Shown in pieces: positions 6,343-22,111 of a DNA stretch of 22,111 bases. Position numbers and translations under genes: made by a program. Each line of letters begins with the position of its first letter. Positions within the stretch are counted from its first letter, which is position 1. The notes beneath the pieces were generated by a model. That model was not told the origin of the DNA, ran no database searches, and saw nothing but the letters and a program-made list of their open reading frames with translations. Origin of the DNA: a virus. The DNA is taken from positions 1-22,111 of the IMG/VR virus record IMGVR_UViG_3300049827_000226; one strand, 5' to 3'.

Positions 6343-8613
6343 ATGAGTTCTACGGAATATGCGAGTTTGAGCGTTGGTGTAAGACCAAAACAAAACATTC
6401 CAGAAAATCTGAAAGATGAAGAGTGGGCAAAGCGAAATGTCGATTGGTGCGTTTCAATGAGTCCAATTTTCGTAAATCCTCCGGAAGCTGATTTATATGA
6501 TAGATATAATGGTGTGCGTAGCGAAGAAGCTTTTAATCATATTACGAATACTTTTGGTATTGAATTCCCTGCCGGTAAGCTAAAACATATTCCTCTCGCA
6601 AGACCTTTACTCAATGTACTTCAGGGTGAAGTAGAAGAAAGACCTCTCAATTTTATAGTTCGCGCTGAAGATACAGACGCTGTAAATCAAAAACTGGAAC
6701 AGATATCCACACAATTGCTGGATACAATGGTTCAATTGATTCGTTCCGGTCAACCTCTCGACGTACAAATAGATCAAATTGAAAAATATTATAAGACTGA
6801 TTTCCAGACAGAACTTGAAATTGGTACTCACCATGCCTTGAATGCTTATATTAATAAGCATCATCTTGAGAGAAAATTCTTTGATTGTTTCAGAGATAAA
6901 ACTATTACCGGTAGAGAATACTATCGTGTAAGAATCAATCGTATCGGTGAAGACCCAATTTTTGAATCAATTCGTCCGGGACATCTTTACTATCCTTGGG
7001 ATAATAAGGAGTGGGTAAAAGAATGTGATTGGTGTGTATATCCAATGCAAATGACTCCGGTACAAATACTGGACTCTTTTGGTGAGAAACTGGAACCTGA
7101 TGATCGCAATCGTTTGGAAGACATGATTGATATGTATTCCCGCGATTCGTATAAACTTCGTGGTGCTGATGAAGCAGACAGGATGTTAAACAACGCAGAT
7201 GATTACAGGGATTACATGTCGCATTTCACGAATAAGATTACTGTTTATTTTACAGAATGGAAGTCAATTCGCAAAGTCTATTTTATTCAGAACCCCAATA
7301 AATACGTGCCCGGAGCAGACTTCGTGAAGTTTATTCAGGAAGATAAACTTGAAGAACTCAACGGTGCAAAGCGTAAGAATCTTCAGGTACGATATGTTCA
7401 GGATTTATGGCAAGGTGTAAGGATTGGTGATACAATTCACGTCGATTTGGGTAAGGTTAAATATCCGGTTCGTAGTCTGAGTGAACCTTCTAAGGTGTAT
7501 CTTACCTTTAACGGACCTACCTATAATGGTCGTGTTAAACCTTATTCATTGGTAAAGCAAACCAATGACTTACAAGACCTTTACGATGTATTACATTATC
7601 ATAAGGAGAATTTGATTGCCATGTCCGGTACGAAAGGTTCGTATATGGATTTATCGCAATTACCTCATTTTGGTGATCCGGAAGCAGAAGGAGATAGTCA
7701 GTTTACGCATAACCTCAAGATGTTCTTATACTATAAGAAGTTGGGTGTTGCATTTATTGATAGAGCAAAAGAAAGTGCTGATAAATCATTTAACCAGTTT
7801 GGTACGTATGATGATACTGTTGGACAAGGATTAAATGTGGTACTTTCAATGATTCAGCATATTGAAGAAATAGCAGGTCGTTTGATTGGTGTTAATAGGC
7901 AACGTCTTGGTGCTATTGCAAACCGTGAAGGAAAAGGTACTACGGAACATGCTATTATGCAGTCGAATCTTGTGACAGAAGCAATCTTTAATGAACATGA
8001 TGAATTTGTACGTCATGCTTTGGAAGATATTTTGAATGCTTGTAGAATAACATGGAAGAATGGTTATACTGGTATATATACATCAGATCAGTATACTCAG
8101 AATATATTCACGCTTGATCCATCATTTGCATTATCAGATTTTGGTATCTATATTACCAACAGATTTAGTGATGCAAGAAGTATCGGTGAGATAAAAGAAT
8201 TTGCGTATCAAATGGTGGGTAAGAGTTTACTTGAATTTGAAGATATATTACCTTTGTTCCGTAAATCAAATCTTAAAGATGTTGAAAAGACAATCAGTAA
8301 GAATCTTGAGACACGTAAGAAAGCAATTAATGAGCAGCAACAACAAGCTGCTGCTTTGGAAATGCAAATGCGAAATGCGCGTGAGCAAAGTGAAATTCAG
8401 AAGATTCAGGCTGAAATTCAGAAGATTCTTTCTGATATACAGTTAAATCAAAAGATGGCAGAAATAGAAGAAAGTACGCTTAGTTTAAAAGAGAAAGAGT
8501 TGACACAAGATCAGCAGAATGAAAGTGAACATCTCGCATTAGAGGCTAAACAGCTTGATGTTGCGTCTGCACAAAAAGTAAGTAGTTCAACAGAAGTTAA
8601 AAACAAAAAGTAA
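6343..8613 (+). CDS. Portal protein
   Basis: This 756-residue protein starts one base after TerL, the standard place for a portal, and its length fits the large portals of crAss-like phages. The N-terminal half includes an arginine-rich LARPLLNVLQGEVEERPL region and the sequence NKEWVKECDWCVYPMQM, consistent with clip and wing parts. Residues ~470-560 include long helices (NVVLSMIQHIEEIAGRLIG) typical of the portal stem and wing. The C-terminal ~90 residues form a Gln/Glu-rich coiled coil with EIQKIQAEIQKILSDIQ, which would give the barrel or crown inside the head. A portal forms a twelve-subunit ring through which DNA enters and leaves. The call rests mainly on order, size and this layout. 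Confidence 0.88.
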   Translation: MSSTEYASLSVGVRPKQNIPENLKDEEWAKRNVDWCVSMSPIFVNPPEADLYDRYNGVRSEEAFNHITNTFGIEFPAGKLKHIPLARPLLNVLQGEVEERPLNFIVRAEDTDAVNQKLEQISTQLLDTMVQLIRSGQPLDVQIDQIEKYYKTDFQTELEIGTHHALNAYINKHHLERKFFDCFRDKTITGREYYRVRINRIGEDPIFESIRPGHLYYPWDNKEWVKECDWCVYPMQMTPVQILDSFGEKLEPDDRNRLEDMIDMYSRDSYKLRGADEADRMLNNADDYRDYMSHFTNKITVYFTEWKSIRKVYFIQNPNKYVPGADFVKFIQEDKLEELNGAKRKNLQVRYVQDLWQGVRIGDTIHVDLGKVKYPVRSLSEPSKVYLTFNGPTYNGRVKPYSLVKQTNDLQDLYDVLHYHKENLIAMSGTKGSYMDLSQLPHFGDPEAEGDSQFTHNLKMFLYYKKLGVAFIDRAKESADKSFNQFGTYDDTVGQGLNVVLSMIQHIEEIAGRLIGVNRQRLGAIANREGKGTTEHAIMQSNLVTEAIFNEHDEFVRHALEDILNACRITWKNGYTGIYTSDQYTQNIFTLDPSFALSDFGIYITNRFSDARSIGEIKEFAYQMVGKSLLEFEDILPLFRKSNLKDVEKTISKNLETRKKAINEQQQQAAALEMQMRNAREQSEIQKIQAEIQKILSDIQLNQKMAEIEESTLSLKEKELTQDQQNESEHLALEAKQLDVASAQKVSSSTEVKNKK
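8391..8427 (+). repeat. 16-base direct repeat in portal coiled coil
   Basis: TGAAATTCAGAAGATT occurs at 8391-8406 and again at 8412-8427, offset by 21 bases or exactly seven codons. It encodes the repeated EIQKI of the portal C-terminal helix, so each copy is one heptad of the coiled coil. It looks like a local duplication that lengthens or keeps the helix in register. Confidence 0.7.
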
Positions 8614-14563: not shown

Positions 14564-14905
14564 ATGCGCGATCATAATGGTGCGGGTCGTAATTATAACG
14601 CACAAGCTTATACTCTTGCACAAAAGGTGATAAGATTAATGTTTCAGAAGATAATTGCAAAGATATTAGTTGGTGATAGGGTATTTCTAACACCAAAGAA
14701 GGTAATGTATATCGGAATGATTCCGGATAATCCTGCAAGGATTGCGAAGTGGAGGAATAAAAACCGATTAAACTTACACACCAATGGAAGAAGATATGGT
14801 GTTAAAATAACAGGGTTTGCACATAATTGCTATATTCGTATGCCATCCAACAAGCGAATGGATTTGATGAGAAGAATTAAAACCGGTCAAAAATATTTAA
14901 ACTAA
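14564..14905 (+). CDS. Unassigned basic protein in the neck cluster
   Basis: The protein is 113 residues long from ATG 14564. It is basic throughout, with a helix (TLAQKVIRLMFQKIIAKIL) followed by beta-type segments (VFLTPKKVMYIGMIP, YGVKITGFAHNCYIR). The frame stays open upstream to a GTG at 14441, which would add 41 residues and overlap the previous gene by 110 bases. I prefer 14564 because the overlapped stretch has typical codon use in the other frame and less typical use in this one, and because every other gene here starts with ATG. The final base of its stop overlaps the next ATG. Function is unknown; a virion or assembly role is inferred from position. Confidence 0.68.
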   Translation: MRDHNGAGRNYNAQAYTLAQKVIRLMFQKIIAKILVGDRVFLTPKKVMYIGMIPDNPARIAKWRNKNRLNLHTNGRRYGVKITGFAHNCYIRMPSNKRMDLMRRIKTGQKYLN

Positions 14906-15618
14906 TGAGAGCAAAACTTAGGATTACCCGCCCAGTACCTCTGAATAACTTGCAACCTTTTCAAGGTGGAGGTAAACCCCCAACAGAAAAAGAAGACCTA
15001 TTTCCTCAATATCAATATCGTCCTACCCCTCTTTATGAAGATGCAAAAAATGATCCTAAGTCAGGATTCAATCGTGTTGGTACAATGACACGGGACGAGT
15101 ATACGAGATTATTGGATAGAGAAAATGAAGTTCCGGATAGCGAAGGTTTTACTGGACCTCAATATGTTCCGGATTTGCGTAGATCAGTAGGTTCTGATGC
15201 CGATTGGGAAAACATTATCAATACATTCAAACAATACCCAACAGTTAAAGCGCTTGAGTATGGAAAGTTTTCTCAACCAAATATGCCTGCCGTAAATGCT
15301 GTTACAGGAATGTGGTCAGGTGCTGATATGCCACCATCTCTTGATTCTAAGTTTCCTCAACCTGTAAAACCTGCTACAATGTCGGTAAATCCTTTGGAAC
15401 TCAGAGCACCCGAACAAGAACCACAGGGTAGAAAGGTAAATGCTTGGAACTACAATAGGGGTAGAAAAATGAACTTTATTGAACGTACCTCAAGAGATAT
15501 GTTTGATAATGATTTCAAACCATTAGGTTTCTTCAAAGATGGTGGTAAAATTAAAATCAAAAAAAGTCGTACCGGTAAACTTGCCATGAAAGCAGGTTGC
15601 GGTAGCAAAATGAAATAA
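14905..15618 (+). CDS. Proline-rich virion-type protein with DGGK ends
   Basis: This 237-residue protein begins on the last base of the previous stop. It is mostly low in secondary structure and rich in Pro, Asn, Asp and Lys. A GGGK cluster lies near the N-terminus (residues 21-24), and DGGK at 212-215 opens a basic C-terminal tail ending KAGCGSKMK. The FKDGGK form resembles the YQDGGM at the start of the 100-residue protein encoded at 20846. Such disordered, glycine-lysine-capped proteins recur in Bacteroides phage structural modules; I know of no assigned role. It may be a minor neck or internal protein. Confidence 0.65.
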   Translation: MRAKLRITRPVPLNNLQPFQGGGKPPTEKEDLFPQYQYRPTPLYEDAKNDPKSGFNRVGTMTRDEYTRLLDRENEVPDSEGFTGPQYVPDLRRSVGSDADWENIINTFKQYPTVKALEYGKFSQPNMPAVNAVTGMWSGADMPPSLDSKFPQPVKPATMSVNPLELRAPEQEPQGRKVNAWNYNRGRKMNFIERTSRDMFDNDFKPLGFFKDGGKIKIKKSRTGKLAMKAGCGSKMK

Positions 15619-15620
15619 CT

Positions 15621-16331
15621 ATGAGAACTGTAACTCCTGAAGCAGTAGCTTCCGCATTGAAAGACGAGTTTAATATCGACATGGATATTTATACCGTCGT
15701 AAGACACTCCGCAAAAGCATTGGAGCTACTTGGGATGATTGCAGTTCACAAAGTAGTTGTTGAAGGAGTTGTTCAGAATTATAGTCTTTTGATACCTCCA
15801 CCAGAGGTTGTAAAGCTATCTGCTGTTATAAAGGTTGAGGATTATAATAGTTCCGCAGACATTGTGCTTCAGGAGATATATCATCCTCCACAGATAATCT
15901 TCACTTCTGAAGACTTAGGTGAAGGTGATCCAATTGATGCACCTCAATACATACAAAACTATATGCCTAATTTTAGATCAGGTTATATAGATCACGTATG
16001 GGATTGTCCTTATTTGAAATTCAACGAGACTGACATTAAAGTACTTGTTGAGTATACAACACTTACCCTCGATGACAATGGTTATCCGAAAATTCCGGAA
16101 ACCGTTATGGATGCATGTGTATATTGGTGCTTATTTAAGCATATACAACAATTGTATATTATCGGTAAAGTTGGTGAATCTCAGATGGAGCGTGTAACAC
16201 AATGGAAAACTCAGAAGTTTGCTCAGTCTGAACAGCGTACTATTATGCGATCATTGAGTGCAAATGAAATGAATCGGGTTATGAATATTATGAGTTCTTT
16301 TGATAGAAAACGTGTAAACATAGATGTCTAA
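15621..16331 (+). CDS. Candidate ring/tail-adaptor protein
   Basis: This 236-residue protein lies directly before the large tail-stabilisation gene, with an 8-base overlap. The N-terminus is helical (ALKDEFNIDMDIYTVVRHS). The middle is beta-rich, with an acidic, proline-containing loop (PPQIIFTSEDLGEGDPIDAP, ~90-109). The strand DIKVLVEYTTLTLDDNGYPKI (~140-160) is followed by a helix (VMDACVYWCLFKHIQQLYII). That order, a strand carrying 'LD..G.P.IP' followed by a helix that contacts the neighbouring subunit, resembles connector proteins from crAss-like and P22-type podoviruses. Two Cys residues in the helix are unlikely to bind metal. Assignment is by layout and order. Confidence 0.62.
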   Translation: MRTVTPEAVASALKDEFNIDMDIYTVVRHSAKALELLGMIAVHKVVVEGVVQNYSLLIPPPEVVKLSAVIKVEDYNSSADIVLQEIYHPPQIIFTSEDLGEGDPIDAPQYIQNYMPNFRSGYIDHVWDCPYLKFNETDIKVLVEYTTLTLDDNGYPKIPETVMDACVYWCLFKHIQQLYIIGKVGESQMERVTQWKTQKFAQSEQRTIMRSLSANEMNRVMNIMSSFDRKRVNIDV

Positions 16332-19300
16332 TCATTCAAATAGTTTTGAAGAAGGTCTGAATGTAGATATATCAGACATCTTGATGCGTCAGAATATGAT
16401 GCGCAATTGTATGAATATGCGTCTTATTGATCTTGACGGTTCATCATATGCATTGACTTCTATCAGAGGTACAAGTAAATCATTTAATCTCACCGATGGA
16501 TACATTCCATTGGCATCACGTGAATACGGAGGAATTCTATATATCATCTCCGGAACCCTAAATGGAACACTTGTGGAGAGTGTAGAGATTGGTTCATTTC
16601 CTTCACCAGATTATGCGTATGATGGTGACGGTAAATGGAAGTATCGACCATTCAATAACTTTGATAATGGACCATTCAGAGTAGAAGGATTGTTTAATTT
16701 AACCAAAGATATGTTTATTGACATGTCTATTCAACCTGAATATGATGGTTCAGTAAATGTTATAATCACTGCTTTAAACAATATCCCCCGAATTATAAAC
16801 TCAAAGTTTGATAAAGACCTTGTTATACTCAATGATCGTGGTGGATCAACTTCAAATTCATATACTACTGGTTCAGTAGATACCGAAACTCAGTTGATTA
16901 TTCGCTCAAAGAAGATCATGAACGTCGCTTATGGCGGCATCGAACCGGGTGGAAATCTTCAAGCCGGGAACTATGTGTATATCTTCAAGTACACAACTGA
17001 TGATTTCAACGAATCTGATATTGTAAATCAATCTGGTATATGCTCAGTATTTAGCGGTTCTACTATAAACCAGATTGTAGGAGAATATAATGTTCAAACT
17101 ACAAAACGTGTAAGACTCACGCTATCCAATATTGATACCAACTTCGCATACCTGAAAGTCTATTTTCGATTCAGCAGGGGTGATGATTCTAAACTTGTCA
17201 ATTTCTACGAGTTTACGCAACCAATTGCTATTAATGGCAGAACAACCATTGAGTTGATTCATGATGGTTATGAAAGTACGGCTGAAGTATCACCAGACAC
17301 AATAAATCTGGATTACAGTGTGTTTGATAATGTAGCTGTAAATACTCAGGCAAATGGACATTTGATTGTAGGTAACGTCTCTGAAACAGGAATTAACTAC
17401 TCAGAATTTGCAGAGGCTGCTCAGGCGATTACAATGTCTTATATCTTTAAGACAATTGCTTCAGCATCTCCTTATTCAGACCCTGCAAACATATACTCAT
17501 TCTTATCATACTTTTCTTGTGAGACCTATCCTTTTGGAGTTGTATGGATATTACCTGATGGTTCACTGACACCTGTATTTCCGGTACAAGGTTATGATGC
17601 CTATCGTTGGGCACAATTGAGTCCTGAACAGCAGGATGATATCAAACGTAAAGGACTATTCAGGTTTCCAAGCATTGAACAGGTTCAGCCGTATGTAGAT
17701 ATTGTTGATCAGGCTGCTATTTTTCCAAAAGGTATTCGTTTTGATGTATCCTTATTACCTCCTGCGATTAAGCAGAAAACGATAGGTTGTTTCTTTGTTC
17801 GTGGAGAAAGAGTAAAGGATGCTATCACACAAGGATTCCTGATACCTACAATGCGAGTACCGGCGATAGATGCTACTCGAACTGCTGAAATTGATAATAT
17901 TCCGGATAGAGATTATTATGCATACTATACCTCAGCAGCAGCTTATAAAAGCTTTCCTGTAATGAGTGGTATGGTTGAACCTTGGTTGTTAAGAGACGTT
18001 GGTGGTACAGATAGAACTGTTCTTAAAAGGGATGGTACATTTAGAATCGGAGACGGCTATATGCCTTCTGTTGCAATCAACTTCAGACTAACAATTGATG
18101 GTCAGCAGGTACAGGTAAAAGACCCTAAACATTGGGCGTTTATATCTGCTGATTACATGCTGAATGAAGCAGAGTACATCTCTTCATTGCAGCGTTCTAA
18201 TCTTGGATTCTCTATTGTATATGCCGCAGAACTGAAAGCTGTAACTGAAGGAAAGATTCTGAATAAATGGAAGCCTACTGCTACCGATCAAATAACTGGT
18301 GGAAACGTAGATACGTCCTTATTATTCGAACATCGTGGACTTGCAACAGATGCTGATATTAAATGCAGTGGTGCTATTGAGAAAATTGTATATGTACCAT
18401 CAAGTTCTTTTACACCGGCTGAAGAATTCATATCAGGTCTTTCTGTGAGATTCAAAGTGAATGCCGATATAGGTTATCAGGCACGTTCCTTTGTGGATAA
18501 CTACTTTGGGGTTATTCTTACAATACCTAATACTACAATTGATGCAGACGGACCATATGTTCAACCTTCAATTGGAGCAAGCATTCATCCTCAAATAACT
18601 GGTCCTAATTATGCCAATATTGGTGTTAAGAAGAAACTTGCTTATCTGGTTACCATATATCCTCGTCCTAATGGACAACCTATTGATGATATCAATCAGC
18701 TTTATGATACCATAAATGGTATTGCATACAAGCAGATATATGATAGACTGTCATGGTCACAAGTGAGTAATACAGTTGATGTTTATGATGGTGATTGTTT
18801 TATAGGAAAGATTTATAAGAAACTTAATAGGTCAGGATATATTGATCCTTTACAACCAACAGACGTTGTTGAAGATGTGGCTGCATATGAAGAAGGTAAT
18901 GCTGAAGATAATATCAATCAAGGTGTAACATTCTCAATGATTCATGAAACACCATACAACCCATCATTAAGACTTAAATATCTTGCCGATGTAGCTGATC
19001 CGGAGAAGAGAAATTTCTATCCTTACAGGAACAATGGTGATTATAATAAATTCAGAGAGTATCGTCTTGAGGAAACCAACAAAACAAACCTTGGATTCAA
19101 TGATTTGACGAAACCAAAGACTTTTGTTCCTATACCAGATGATGCTCCATTTATTGCAAGTAAATACTTTACAAGACTTATTCACTCTGAGAAGCACATT
19201 CCAAATGCTTTTCAAAATGGTTATAGATCGTTTGTAGGTGTAAACTATCAGGATTATAATGCTGAATGCGGAGAGATTGTACGTTTGTTTACACATCGGG

Positions 19301-20232
19301 ATAATATACTCGTTGTATTTGAACATGGTATTGGTGTTGGTCCTATCAGTCAGCGTATTCAGACAGGTTCCGATGCAGCCGGTGGAATTTTTGTAGAGCC
19401 TTCCGGAGTATTACCTCCAAATCTTTCATTCTATTCCAAAGAGATTGGTGTACAGCATGGTAGAGATGCCATTCAGACACCAGCTTGTATCTATGGAATA
19501 GATAAAACTCGTCGTAAAATATGGCAAATACGTGAACAGTTGAATATAATTTCTGATGCAAGTATTCAGTCATACTTAGAAAATCTTCAATCTGAAGCAT
19601 TTGAGAATATTCGCCTCGGATACGATCCCCATTATCATGAAGTAATATTTACTGCGGGATTACCGGGCTACGAATGGACTATTTGTTTCAAAGAAGGATT
19701 AGAAAAGTTCGTATCTTTTTATTCATACACACCTTTACATTATGCTCGAAGAGCGAGGGATTTTTATTCATTCAGTGAGAGTATGGAACAATTCGATATT
19801 CACAATGCACCAGTACGTGAAATTTATGGAAATATTGAAGATTCATTTGTAGAGTTTGTAATCAATCCTTCTGCTAATATGACGAAGGTATTAGACTATC
19901 TTAATCTTATTTCAAATGAAGTACCTCCTGTTAAAATACAACTTTACACATATAAGATTGATACATATAAGGAGCGAATACTCGATGTCAATAAGATGTT
20001 TCAATATATTACAATTGATAATGAGGTTGATCCTTTTACCGAAGAAAGTACTATAAAACTTAGAGATCGGAAATATGTTGTTCAAATACCTAATTTGACA
20101 TACATTAGTGATAATGATTGGGGATTGGGTAGATTACGAAATAAGTATTTTATCGTAAGATTGACTTATACAGCCGATCAAAAAGTAGAATTGTTAGCAG
20201 TTATTTCAAACTTTAGATTCTCAGCAAGCTAA
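16324..20232 (+). CDS. Large tail stabilisation ('muzzle'-like) protein
   Basis: This 1302-residue protein is the largest here. Its opening (SFEEGLNVDISDI, then MNMRLIDLDGSSYALTSIRG) is the pattern I recall at the start of crAss-like stabilisation proteins: an 'F-x-x-G-L-N-x-D' motif followed by a list of surface strands. Long beta-rich stretches with few charged helices follow. A later conserved block includes GGIFVEPSGVLPPNLSFYSK and a GIDKTRRKIWQIR segment (~1055-1072), typical of the family's beta-propeller-like body. In crAss001 the equivalent-size protein forms the tail 'muzzle' below the ring proteins. The equivalence is inferred from order, length and opening motif. No cleavage site or receptor-binding domain is obvious. 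Confidence 0.82.
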   Translation: MSNHSNSFEEGLNVDISDILMRQNMMRNCMNMRLIDLDGSSYALTSIRGTSKSFNLTDGYIPLASREYGGILYIISGTLNGTLVESVEIGSFPSPDYAYDGDGKWKYRPFNNFDNGPFRVEGLFNLTKDMFIDMSIQPEYDGSVNVIITALNNIPRIINSKFDKDLVILNDRGGSTSNSYTTGSVDTETQLIIRSKKIMNVAYGGIEPGGNLQAGNYVYIFKYTTDDFNESDIVNQSGICSVFSGSTINQIVGEYNVQTTKRVRLTLSNIDTNFAYLKVYFRFSRGDDSKLVNFYEFTQPIAINGRTTIELIHDGYESTAEVSPDTINLDYSVFDNVAVNTQANGHLIVGNVSETGINYSEFAEAAQAITMSYIFKTIASASPYSDPANIYSFLSYFSCETYPFGVVWILPDGSLTPVFPVQGYDAYRWAQLSPEQQDDIKRKGLFRFPSIEQVQPYVDIVDQAAIFPKGIRFDVSLLPPAIKQKTIGCFFVRGERVKDAITQGFLIPTMRVPAIDATRTAEIDNIPDRDYYAYYTSAAAYKSFPVMSGMVEPWLLRDVGGTDRTVLKRDGTFRIGDGYMPSVAINFRLTIDGQQVQVKDPKHWAFISADYMLNEAEYISSLQRSNLGFSIVYAAELKAVTEGKILNKWKPTATDQITGGNVDTSLLFEHRGLATDADIKCSGAIEKIVYVPSSSFTPAEEFISGLSVRFKVNADIGYQARSFVDNYFGVILTIPNTTIDADGPYVQPSIGASIHPQITGPNYANIGVKKKLAYLVTIYPRPNGQPIDDINQLYDTINGIAYKQIYDRLSWSQVSNTVDVYDGDCFIGKIYKKLNRSGYIDPLQPTDVVEDVAAYEEGNAEDNINQGVTFSMIHETPYNPSLRLKYLADVADPEKRNFYPYRNNGDYNKFREYRLEETNKTNLGFNDLTKPKTFVPIPDDAPFIASKYFTRLIHSEKHIPNAFQNGYRSFVGVNYQDYNAECGEIVRLFTHRDNILVVFEHGIGVGPISQRIQTGSDAAGGIFVEPSGVLPPNLSFYSKEIGVQHGRDAIQTPACIYGIDKTRRKIWQIREQLNIISDASIQSYLENLQSEAFENIRLGYDPHYHEVIFTAGLPGYEWTICFKEGLEKFVSFYSYTPLHYARRARDFYSFSESMEQFDIHNAPVREIYGNIEDSFVEFVINPSANMTKVLDYLNLISNEVPPVKIQLYTYKIDTYKERILDVNKMFQYITIDNEVDPFTEESTIKLRDRKYVVQIPNLTYISDNDWGLGRLRNKYFIVRLTYTADQKVELLAVISNFRFSAS

Positions 20233-20849
20233 TGCCACTACCTCGTCTTTTACCGAAAGCACCACCTTCTTTTGCAATCAATCAGCCTGTATTGCCTACA
20301 AGTCTTCCTATGACTAATGTTCCTCAAGCAGGTGCTGCTGGGGGAATCGGTGGTATGGGAGGAATGGGAGGAATTGGTGATGCAGTTTCATCAGTCATGT
20401 CTGCTATTTCACCTGCGGATGAGGTGAATGCTAAGTTCATGGAGCGCAATAAAGATATACAGCGTTCTATTGATAGTATGTCTGGCATATCGAGTGGTTT
20501 ATCAAAAGCTGCTCTTTCATCAGGTAATCCTATTGCAATGGCTGCTGGTGCATTGATGATGGGTGGAAGTGCTTTGACGAAAAATGCTACTGATGAATTT
20601 GGTGTAATCGAAGAAGGTGAAAAAGGAAAAGCAATTCTTGGAAGTATTCTAAATCCGATTGAAGGACTTCCTATGTTGTTTAATCAGAAAAAACGTCTTG
20701 CTGCAAAGAATAAGTTTATCAATACTGAAACAAATGCCAATCTTGCAGAAGGTAGACAACAGGGTAATATCATAAGCAACTCAATACCAAAATATACTCC
20801 ACCTGCGTATGGAAAATTTGGTAGAAAATTAACGAAATTTACGAGATGA
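20232..20849 (+). CDS. Gly/Met-rich probable internal virion protein
   Basis: The start overlaps the previous stop by one base. The protein has 205 residues: a proline-rich N-terminus, a Gly/Met stretch (AGAAGGIGGMGGMGGIG, ~34-50), and a helix (SPADEVNAKFMERNKDIQRSI). A small-residue hydrophobic segment follows (GNPIAMAAGALMMGGSAL, ~96-113), which could insert in or cross a membrane. The C-terminal part has NPIEGLPMLFNQKKRLA and a basic end (YGKFGRKLTKFTR). A small protein with a Gly-rich tract and membrane-active segment right after the tail gene suits an ejection or cargo protein. That is inferred; no known family is recognised. Confidence 0.65.
   Translation: MPLPRLLPKAPPSFAINQPVLPTSLPMTNVPQAGAAGGIGGMGGMGGIGDAVSSVMSAISPADEVNAKFMERNKDIQRSIDSMSGISSGLSKAALSSGNPIAMAAGALMMGGSALTKNATDEFGVIEEGEKGKAILGSILNPIEGLPMLFNQKKRLAAKNKFINTETNANLAEGRQQGNIISNSIPKYTPPAYGKFGRKLTKFTR
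20343..20378 (+). repeat. Four 9-base GGN-ATN-GGN repeats
   Basis: Four in-frame 9-base units encode GIG, GMG, GMG and GIG in the Gly/Met-rich protein. The two central units are the most alike. The unit count could change easily by slippage, so length variation between related phages is expected. Confidence 0.7.
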
Positions 20850-21148
20850 GCAAGTTTAAAATAAAACCTCGCGCTCCTAAGCGATATCAGGACGGAGGAA
20901 TGGTTGAGGGTCCAAGCCACGAAGAAGGTGGAATTGAAGCGTATGCTTCTGATGGAACACCTGTTGCTGAAATAGAAGGTGGTGAACGTATCTTCTCAGT
21001 ACAAGACACTGCTGAGATAGAAGCTGCTGTTTCAGAGATTAACTCTCTTTCAGAAAGTGATCCGGAAGCTGCCGATCAAATGGCAATGAAACTTGGTTAT
21101 CGGGTTGCAGAAATGATTGTAAAACAAGAACAAATAAATCCTTCATAA
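20846..21148 (+). CDS. 100-residue protein with GPSHEEGGI...EIEGGE motif
   Basis: The gene overlaps the previous one by four bases (ATGA). The protein starts with a basic lead (MSKFKIKPRAPKRY), then QDGGMVEGPSHEEGGI (15-30) and VAEIEGGERIFS (40-51), followed by an acidic helical C-terminal half. I recall the 'GPSHEEGGI ... EIEGGE' pairing from many Bacteroides phage virion proteins, where it often sits near the end of larger proteins. Its molecular role is unknown to me. Here it forms almost the whole of a small stand-alone protein between the tail and internal protein genes. It may be a tag or docking module for capsid-internal proteins, which is a guess. Confidence 0.75.
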   Translation: MSKFKIKPRAPKRYQDGGMVEGPSHEEGGIEAYASDGTPVAEIEGGERIFSVQDTAEIEAAVSEINSLSESDPEAADQMAMKLGYRVAEMIVKQEQINPS

Positions 21149-21149
21149 A

Positions 21150-22111
21150 ATGGGAAAGCAGCGCACTATAACAATGAGCACTCCTTCACAAGGCGTTGAT
21201 TTTCGTCAACTAATAACAAGCCGTGTAGGTAAAGATAAATTTGAGGATGTCACAACCGAAGACGTTGTAAATTGGGCATCTTCACAAGGTTGGAGAGATA
21301 AAGACGTTGAACGTATTGCAAAAGGATTTCAGAATTTCTCTCAAAGTTCTGAGCGTTTTACCTTCAATGAAGGTGAACCGGGTACGTTTGAGACTTCCGG
21401 AACCAAAGGTTCAGGTAGAAATGTTGGTAATAAGAAAGGTTTTGACGTTGGTGATATTGTAGGTTTAGGTAAGAACGTATCCAGACTTGCAGGAGCATTG
21501 GAAGCAACCAATAAACCAACTACTCCCAAGTTGACATTTAATGAGACTACGGCATTAGCAGCACCTTCATCACTTGATTATAAAGGATTGCAACTGCCTT
21601 CTGCTGAACAGGCTTTTTCATTTACAAAAGGTAACAATGCAACAGGTGGAAATAAAACTGCTGTTTCTACTGGTAAAGGAAAAGGTGCAAGTGGACAAGC
21701 TGGTGAACAGGCTGCTGGTCAAGCTAAACAACAGAATCAAGTATCTCAATCACCATTGAATAAAACTGTACCTGAAGATAATCCTCTTGCTCCGGAATCT
21801 CCAAACAATGCACTAAATGATCCTGAAAAGCGTAAAGTTGCGCTTGATAGACTGTTCGGTGATACAAGATCACCTGAAGCTAAAAAAATGTATGATAGTA
21901 TGTATGGTGCAGGTAATTGGGCGCCAAATCCTGATGGTAAAGGTATTCTATCAACACCTTCAGTTATACCTGATGTAGGAAGATTAATCGACAATACATT
22001 CGGTACGGATATTGACAATTCTGGTTGGGGTGGTCTTTTAGACCTTATGCTTACTCCCGGTGGAGTAAAATCACCAGAAGCGTTAAGAGCAGCAGGTGTT
22101 CCGTTATGGGG
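21150..22111 (+). CDS. Start of a large low-complexity internal virion protein (partial)
   Basis: An open frame starts at ATG 21150 (alternative ATG 21174) and runs off the right edge, giving at least 320 residues. The first ~60 residues contain a helical region (VTTEDVVNWASSQGWRDKDV). The rest is low in complexity, rich in Gly, Lys, Asn, Thr and Gln, with stretches such as KGKGASGQAGEQAAGQAKQQ. The end visible here has a more ordered part (KRKVALDRLFGD, WGGLLDLMLTPGG). Its place after the tail and Gly-rich genes fits the large internal or cargo proteins of crAss-like phages, but no conserved domain is visible in this part. Confidence 0.75.
   Translation, partial: MGKQRTITMSTPSQGVDFRQLITSRVGKDKFEDVTTEDVVNWASSQGWRDKDVERIAKGFQNFSQSSERFTFNEGEPGTFETSGTKGSGRNVGNKKGFDVGDIVGLGKNVSRLAGALEATNKPTTPKLTFNETTALAAPSSLDYKGLQLPSAEQAFSFTKGNNATGGNKTAVSTGKGKGASGQAGEQAAGQAKQQNQVSQSPLNKTVPEDNPLAPESPNNALNDPEKRKVALDRLFGDTRSPEAKKMYDSMYGAGNWAPNPDGKGILSTPSVIPDVGRLIDNTFGTDIDNSGWGGLLDLMLTPGGVKSPEALRAAGVPLW

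Follow-up and report, generated by a model that had tools for sequence, protein, structure and literature searches.

Gene Content of the Window

The window analyzed here is the whole stretch of 22,111 nucleotides that makes up positions 1 to 22,111 of the viral record IMGVR_UViG_3300049827_000226. It is a fragment of a crAss-like phage (Crassvirales) with the terminase, portal, major capsid, and muzzle families in conserved order, and its family matches include PF23898 (E 3.5e-45), PF25731 (E 2.9e-42), phrog_6547 (E 8.3e-69), and phrog_6681 (E 8.6e-76). The portal protein is identical to gp20 of phage crAss001 at 190 of 725 positions, in an alignment that takes in wing residues 337-380. The second gene after the muzzle gene, termed P0001 here, encodes a small protein with the motif pair GPSHEEGGI...EIEGGE and is separated from the muzzle gene by one 205-aa ORF (Table 1). 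The initial annotation located P0001 between tail and internal-protein genes, which is right in essence, the muzzle gene and this glycine-rich ORF lying directly upstream. Elsewhere in the virion region, a 237-aa ORF (window 14905-15618) has GGG near its N-terminus and a C-terminus rich in lysine and glycine (FFKDGGKIKIKK...), and it has no match in Pfam or PHROG.

Table 1. Features of the window around the module gene, in window coordinates
Feature	Position	Strand	Remarks
Portal protein	6343..8613	+	phrog_6547, E 8.3e-69; aligns to crAss001 gp20
Muzzle protein	16324..20232	+	PF25731 crAss_MUZ, E 2.9e-42
Glycine-rich ORF with hydrophobic stretches, 205 aa	20232..20849	+	Ends AYGKFGRKLTKFTR; between muzzle gene and P0001; counterparts 172 aa (L001) and 205 aa (L129)
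ATGA overlap of P0001 start and upstream stop (TGA)	20846..20849	+	The corresponding genes overlap by 4 nt in L001 and by 7 nt in L129
Module gene P0001, stand-alone	20846..21148	+	100 aa; ATG at 20846, TAA at 21148
Motif 1, GPSHEEGGI, P0001 residues 22-30	20909..20935	+	G22, H25, G28, G29 invariant (n=25 sequences)
Motif 2, EIEGGERIFS, P0001 residues 42-51	20969..20998	+	E42, E44, G45, G46, E47 invariant (n=25 sequences)
Helical hairpin (predicted), P0001 residues 52-71 and 73-97	20999..21136	+	AlphaFold2 model
Start (at least 320 aa) of next gene, cut by window end	21150..22111	+	The L001 counterpart has 754 aa, that of L129 up to 732 aa

The Module Gene and Its Relatives in crAss-like Phages

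Both halves of the motif pair are present in P0001 as first described, at residues 22-30 and 42-47. The description of the protein as almost entirely a motif pair is overstated, as the motif region spans residues 22-51 and AlphaFold2 predicts that about half of the protein, on its C-terminal side, folds as a helical hairpin. The best PHROGs match of P0001 is to a tape-measure family (E 0.0012), and a near-identity DNA search of phages gave no matches.

Orthologues of P0001 occupy the same slot in two other crAss-like contigs (L001:5806-6363, 185 aa; L129:15354-15908, 184 aa). The three proteins are 56-59% identical over their core (57-59% for the two orthologues against P0001), and their genes differ mostly at third codon positions: the differences at codon positions 1/2/3 amount to 0.31/0.27/0.70 against the L129 relative and 0.39/0.29/0.61 against the L001 relative. 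P0001 is thus a real coding gene under protein-level selection. The order of muzzle, glycine-rich ORF, module, and large ORF is common to all three contigs, in which the muzzle model matches with E 2.9e-42 (window), 6.8e-65 (L001), and 5.3e-61 (L129), and both relatives also have the overlap between the module gene and the stop of the glycine-rich gene (Table 1).

A fourth contig, L005, carries the module inside a longer chain. Directly after its crAss_MUZ gene (E 1.4e-48), it encodes a protein of 833 aa that has the module at residue 291, and homology with the stand-alone module is evident from a profile comparison (hhalign E 1.2e-6, 59% identity over 32 columns) that covers the first half of the L005 module. 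A profile of the three stand-alone proteins, A7, was scanned over 10 whole crAss-like records and found seven places in five of them, all within one to two genes after the muzzle gene. Two of the seven places are members of the profile, and the other five come from records outside it (G003 once, W01 and W02 twice each), with weaker matches in W01 and W02 (E between 1.1e-4 and 0.016). No match at E 1 was found in the records of crAss001, phi14:2, FpV4, cr10_1, and L013. The recurrent gene context expected at the outset is therefore seen, as every profile match lies just after a muzzle gene.

In W01 (L007) and W02 (L008), one of the two places is a protein that combines the module with DUF192, and the other is the end of the preceding gene. 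DUF192 (PF02643, E 1.2e-27 and 5.1e-30) stands in front of the module in L007:26256-26822 and L008:23993-24640, respectively, and the preceding gene ends with NVIP(D/E)GALHA...AEIERNEIIF, which resembles a second module.

In L008 (MT835492) and L105, TAG is a sense codon and long ORFs appear only with TAG read as Gln, so that calls with table 11 yield false short "stand-alone" genes. L105 was rejected for this reason as a second stand-alone copy, its 242-aa ORF belonging to an open frame of 1188 codons with TAG as Gln. The frame of P0001 differs from the frames of both its neighbors, which excludes an artefact of stop-codon recoding for this gene.

Among predicted viral proteins, a Foldseek search returned two small uncharacterized proteins, A0A8S5TK15 (200 aa, Foldseek probability 1.00, E 5.1e-3) and A0A8S5QMZ1 (105 aa, from a crAss-like virus, Foldseek probability 0.92, E 0.057), which, on their predicted structures, may be more stand-alone copies of the module. 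Searches by tblastn with the L001 754-aa, L005 833-aa, and L129 184-aa proteins gave no matches, and a scan with the L001 protein gave its self-match only.

The Module in Tape-Measure Proteins

The initial annotation described the motif pair as belonging to larger virion proteins of Bacteroides phages, and it does occur there: tape-measure proteins, including those of Bacteroides phages EMB2, BC679P5, and BS162P3, contain it, and crassvirus cargo proteins have a divergent form. In the three Bacteroides phages the match ends about 80-90 aa before the end of a protein of about 835 aa, and in Gordonia phage OneUp it lies inside the tape-measure protein and not near its end.

A degenerate-pattern scan of viral contigs was surveyed for the best 80 of 161 loci, one of which is the L001 contig. 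The other 79 are ORFs with the motif, and four of them are cut at the 3′ end, leaving 75 ORFs with complete 3′ ends. Within this sample of the best 80 of 161 loci, the module stands 78-108 aa from the C-terminus (median 93) in all 75 ORFs and 85-110 aa from it in 72 of the 75, so that a search across phage proteins does reveal a recurrent position. This fixed distance is inherited and does not represent 75 independent observations, because the contigs share one tape-measure family. Complete module-bearing tape-measure proteins (54 ORFs, among the best 80 of 161 loci) are 1029-1373 aa long. PhageMin_Tail was matched in all 20 full-length ORFs scanned, namely 19 surveyed ORFs (three of 22 representatives, open at the 5′ end, were left out) and the added protein L131. 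The latter (L131:2782-6501) comes from a probable prophage of a Flavobacteriales MAG; it is a tape-measure protein whose C-terminal part contains GPRHSEGGL...VAEIEGGE.

Homology between the stand-alone and tape-measure modules is clear from profile comparison, with E 4.5e-12 for a profile of two stand-alone sequences and 6.4e-13 for one of three, and none of 100 column shuffles scored as high. The closest sequence relatives of the module are accordingly tape-measure proteins and not gp45, the cargo protein discussed below. P0001 itself does not qualify as a tape-measure protein; it has 100 aa, lacks PhageMin_Tail or any other Pfam match, and has the C-terminal module alone in common with that family.

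The tail tip is the likely location of the C-terminal part of tape-measure proteins. The module of P0001 could therefore be of the tape-measure type, binding the distal tail at the muzzle or ring-joining region and capping or plugging the tail instead of docking at the portal. The strength of the sequence match, the position of the module near the C-terminus in the sampled tape-measure ORFs, the PhageMin_Tail matches, and the proximity of P0001 to the muzzle gene are all consistent with this, and so is an unassigned helical segment at the crAss001 muzzle (PMC10172136). Such a role is nonetheless judged rather unlikely, as P0001 occupies the slot of cargo protein 1, and in the one solved virion the module-type domain of that protein sits at the portal.

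A long post-muzzle protein of a further crAss-like contig (L013:16138-18675) contains GKGTPKSDSINAEIKDGSFVV. This stretch resembles a GPGTGTSDSI...GEFVV motif that we take to be one of tape-measure proteins, and by its sequence it is possibly another flavor of the same module.

Relation to the Docking Domain of Cargo Protein 1

Cargo protein 1 of crAss001, gp45, is encoded next to the muzzle gene gp44, on its downstream side. According to the cryo-EM atlas published in Nature in 2023 (PMC10172136), gp45 residues 425-552 form a compact domain that is present in 12 copies and interdigitates with the portal wing loops, residues 214-245 are located in the tail barrel, and the protein was detected in virions by mass spectrometry. 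The motif string of gp45, GGSHEENPYQGI...VEQGE...YVFS, comprises GGSHEENPY at 447, VEQGE at 471, and YVFSDR at 481, which places its motif pair in the portal-bound domain (PF25725, crAss_CARG1).

In positive controls, PF25725 matches gp45 with E 2.3e-66 and phi14:2 g070 with E 2.8e-10. The gene for phi14:2 g070 comes directly after a muzzle gene, and the protein has a gp45-type domain and is marked MS/MS (virion) in its record. It also contains two HExxH stretches, HEFTH and HEFIH (L010:21221-23002), a sequence pattern that suggests metallopeptidase-like parts in this cargo protein, for which no metallopeptidase family was matched in Pfam. The gp45-type domain was found in 50 phage records and in ORFs at 29 of 31 viral-contig loci, 23 of which are distinct. 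The Suoliviridae cargo-1 module is a divergent form of it (E 2.1e-8 against the gp45 docking domain; seven of nine gene entries matched the regular expression, the two cr273_1 entries being the exceptions). Of the FpV4 family, four of five loci were used.

The small genes that precede tape-measure genes encode chaperones. P0001 is likewise small, is predicted to fold as a helical hairpin, and overlaps the stop of an adjoining cassette gene with its start, and it might thus encode an assembly factor, such as a chaperone for the large cargo protein, that is absent from the mature virion. This is improbable, however, given that tape-measure proteins and a long post-muzzle protein contain the same module as a covalent part of their chains, and that two proteins with the gp45-type domain, gp45 and phi14:2 g070, are found in virions.

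The conserved residues allow for yet another role. The protein gpH of phage lambda is cleaved near its C-terminus, and H25, E42, E44, and E47 of P0001 could make up an active site or a metal site that serves, for instance, to cleave tape-measure proteins near their C-terminus. The histidine and the three glutamates are invariant in 25 sequences, and in the 23 gp45-type domains, too, one His and one Glu of the motif region do not vary. Structural conservation of Gly, His, and Glu would give the same pattern, however, and P0001 matches no Pfam family, so that a processing or metal-binding element appears very improbable.

Several comparisons connect P0001 to the gp45 domain, with which it shares the post-muzzle slot. 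A profile of two stand-alone sequences matches the gp45 domain with E 0.0045, scoring above all 100 column shuffles, and one of three sequences does so with E 0.0092, a score that was reached by 1 of 200 shuffles in one series and 0 of 100 in another. The tape-measure profile does no better against gp45 (E 0.0031; at least 1 of 100 shuffles scored higher). The crAss_CARG1 motif GGSHEENP-x-GI ... VEEGE ... YVFS has the same motif order as P0001 but a weak profile score. L005 provides a connection between the two forms, since the first half of its module matches the stand-alone form and the C-terminal half matches the Suoliviridae cargo-1 module (E 7.4e-4 over 73 columns, 0 of 100 shuffles). In addition, the AlphaFold models of P0001 and the gp45 domain have one order in common: strand, SHE loop, strand, G turn, strand (V/E), GE, strand (IF/VFS), helix, helix.

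The P0001 model has a mean pLDDT of 77.4, with ten-residue blocks at 89-97 over residues 51-90 and about 70-80 in the strand region. With this short model, Foldseek and VIA-align did not recover 7qog_M, a control that works for the gp45-domain model (7qog at Z 14.6); the PDB fold search with P0001 returned mainly helical-hairpin look-alikes (best Z 6.8), and the two models have no BFVD neighbor in common among the matches listed. Sequence searches of the PDB with P0001, A7, and A4 failed to retrieve gp45, the A7 matches being mostly designed helical proteins and oxidases, and PF25725 does not match P0001 even at E 10. P0001 is not filed as a PF25725 member because of this lack of a PF25725 match and of 7qog_M. 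The link to the gp45 docking domain is a moderate one: there is agreement in slot, motif order, and the succession of strands and helices, but profile similarity is weak.

Proposed Role of the Stand-Alone Module

P0001 can be read as the docking module of crassvirus ejection ("cargo") protein 1 in stand-alone form, that is, as a split-off docking subunit of the ejection-protein cassette, and the chances of this reading are about even. That P0001 works like the portal-bound domain of gp45 is, by analogy, an equally balanced prospect. In crAss001 the corresponding domain lies mid-chain in gp45, and its 12 copies occupy the portal wing within the head, with the N-terminal part reaching down the tail. 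In the lineage of the window, the single chain would correspond to three consecutive genes, of which the first encodes a glycine-rich protein of membrane type, the second the module, and the third a large protein. By its layout and position, the glycine-rich ORF is proposed to be the N-terminal (membrane) part of the split cargo protein. The overlap between the P0001 start and the upstream stop suggests coupled translation, which might provide matched amounts of these proteins. The free module would then be built into the virion at the portal or neck (or hub), where it would hold its partner cargo proteins until ejection.

The cargo protein 1 layout is a single chain with a glycine-rich membrane N-terminus and a helical C-terminus, and the window lineage has three separate ORFs. 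Sequence proof of a three-way split of gp45 was sought and rejected: against gp45 and Suoliviridae parts, the glycine-rich ORFs gave E 0.22 to 0.0018 and the C-terminal ORFs 0.11 to 0.039. As neither the N-terminal nor the C-terminal part of gp45 is thus significantly similar to the flanking proteins, the putative split rests on position and layout. A simple one-to-one split leaves the two module-like places in each of W01 and W02, one of them fused to DUF192, unexplained. A further idea, that cargo proteins have a short N-terminal [KR]..[FYL]..GG tag in common, was rejected: in two phage records the pattern stands at the N-termini of 2 of 74 and 6 of 67 called genes, respectively, compared to 1.6 and 1.2 expected by shuffling, and just one to two of these per record are cassette genes.

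The idea in the initial annotation that the module is a docking tag is a good guess, to which the portal-docking domain of crAss001 would lend structural support by analogy, and its interpretation as a whole is partly supported. More tentatively, the GPSHEEGGI...EIEGGE domain might be a general docking device for proteins that are injected by tailed phages before the DNA. One module would have been exchanged between long-tailed phages, in their tape-measure proteins, and crAss-like phages, in their cargo proteins. It would occur in fused or duplicated form, with DUF192 attached, or as a free adaptor subunit, and would fix ejection proteins to the portal/neck or hub. If this is true, a frequent and functionally unnamed tape-measure motif would be linked to a domain whose place in a solved virion is known, and both phage types would be expected to have the same small fold at the portal or hub. 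It would also provide a short, separable handle on the holding and release of injected crAss-like phage proteins, including the virion RNA polymerase. In literature on crassvirus cargo and muzzle proteins, the crAss-like tape measure, and DUF192 in virions, which was covered in part, no description of the stand-alone module or of the tape-measure link was found.

Comparison with Known Systems

Three known arrangements are comparable to P0001. The C-terminal module of siphophage tape-measure proteins (PhageMin_Tail; e.g., EMB2) is homologous over P0001 residues 11-68 (hhalign E about 1e-12). In contrast to P0001, it is located about 93 aa from the C-terminus of a protein of 830-1370 aa, and the segment after it aligns poorly with the second helix of P0001.

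The post-muzzle proteins of the human gut crAss-like phages MT835470 and MT835492 occupy the same slot as P0001 and match it in GGERI(F/V)S and the following helix (hhalign E 4.5e-7 for MT835470). Unlike P0001, they carry an N-terminal DUF192 fusion, and a second module-like stretch of the NVIP-GALHA type ends the preceding gene.

The compact domain of crassvirus cargo protein 1 (PF25725; gp45 425-552, PDB 7qog_M) resembles P0001 in its post-muzzle slot, in the motif order H...G-(I/V)...E-x-G-E...(I/V)-F-S, and in its predicted strands followed by helices. P0001 differs from it in being a stand-alone protein of 100 aa with a shorter loop, whereas the cargo protein 1 domain is part of a chain of 600-1270 aa.
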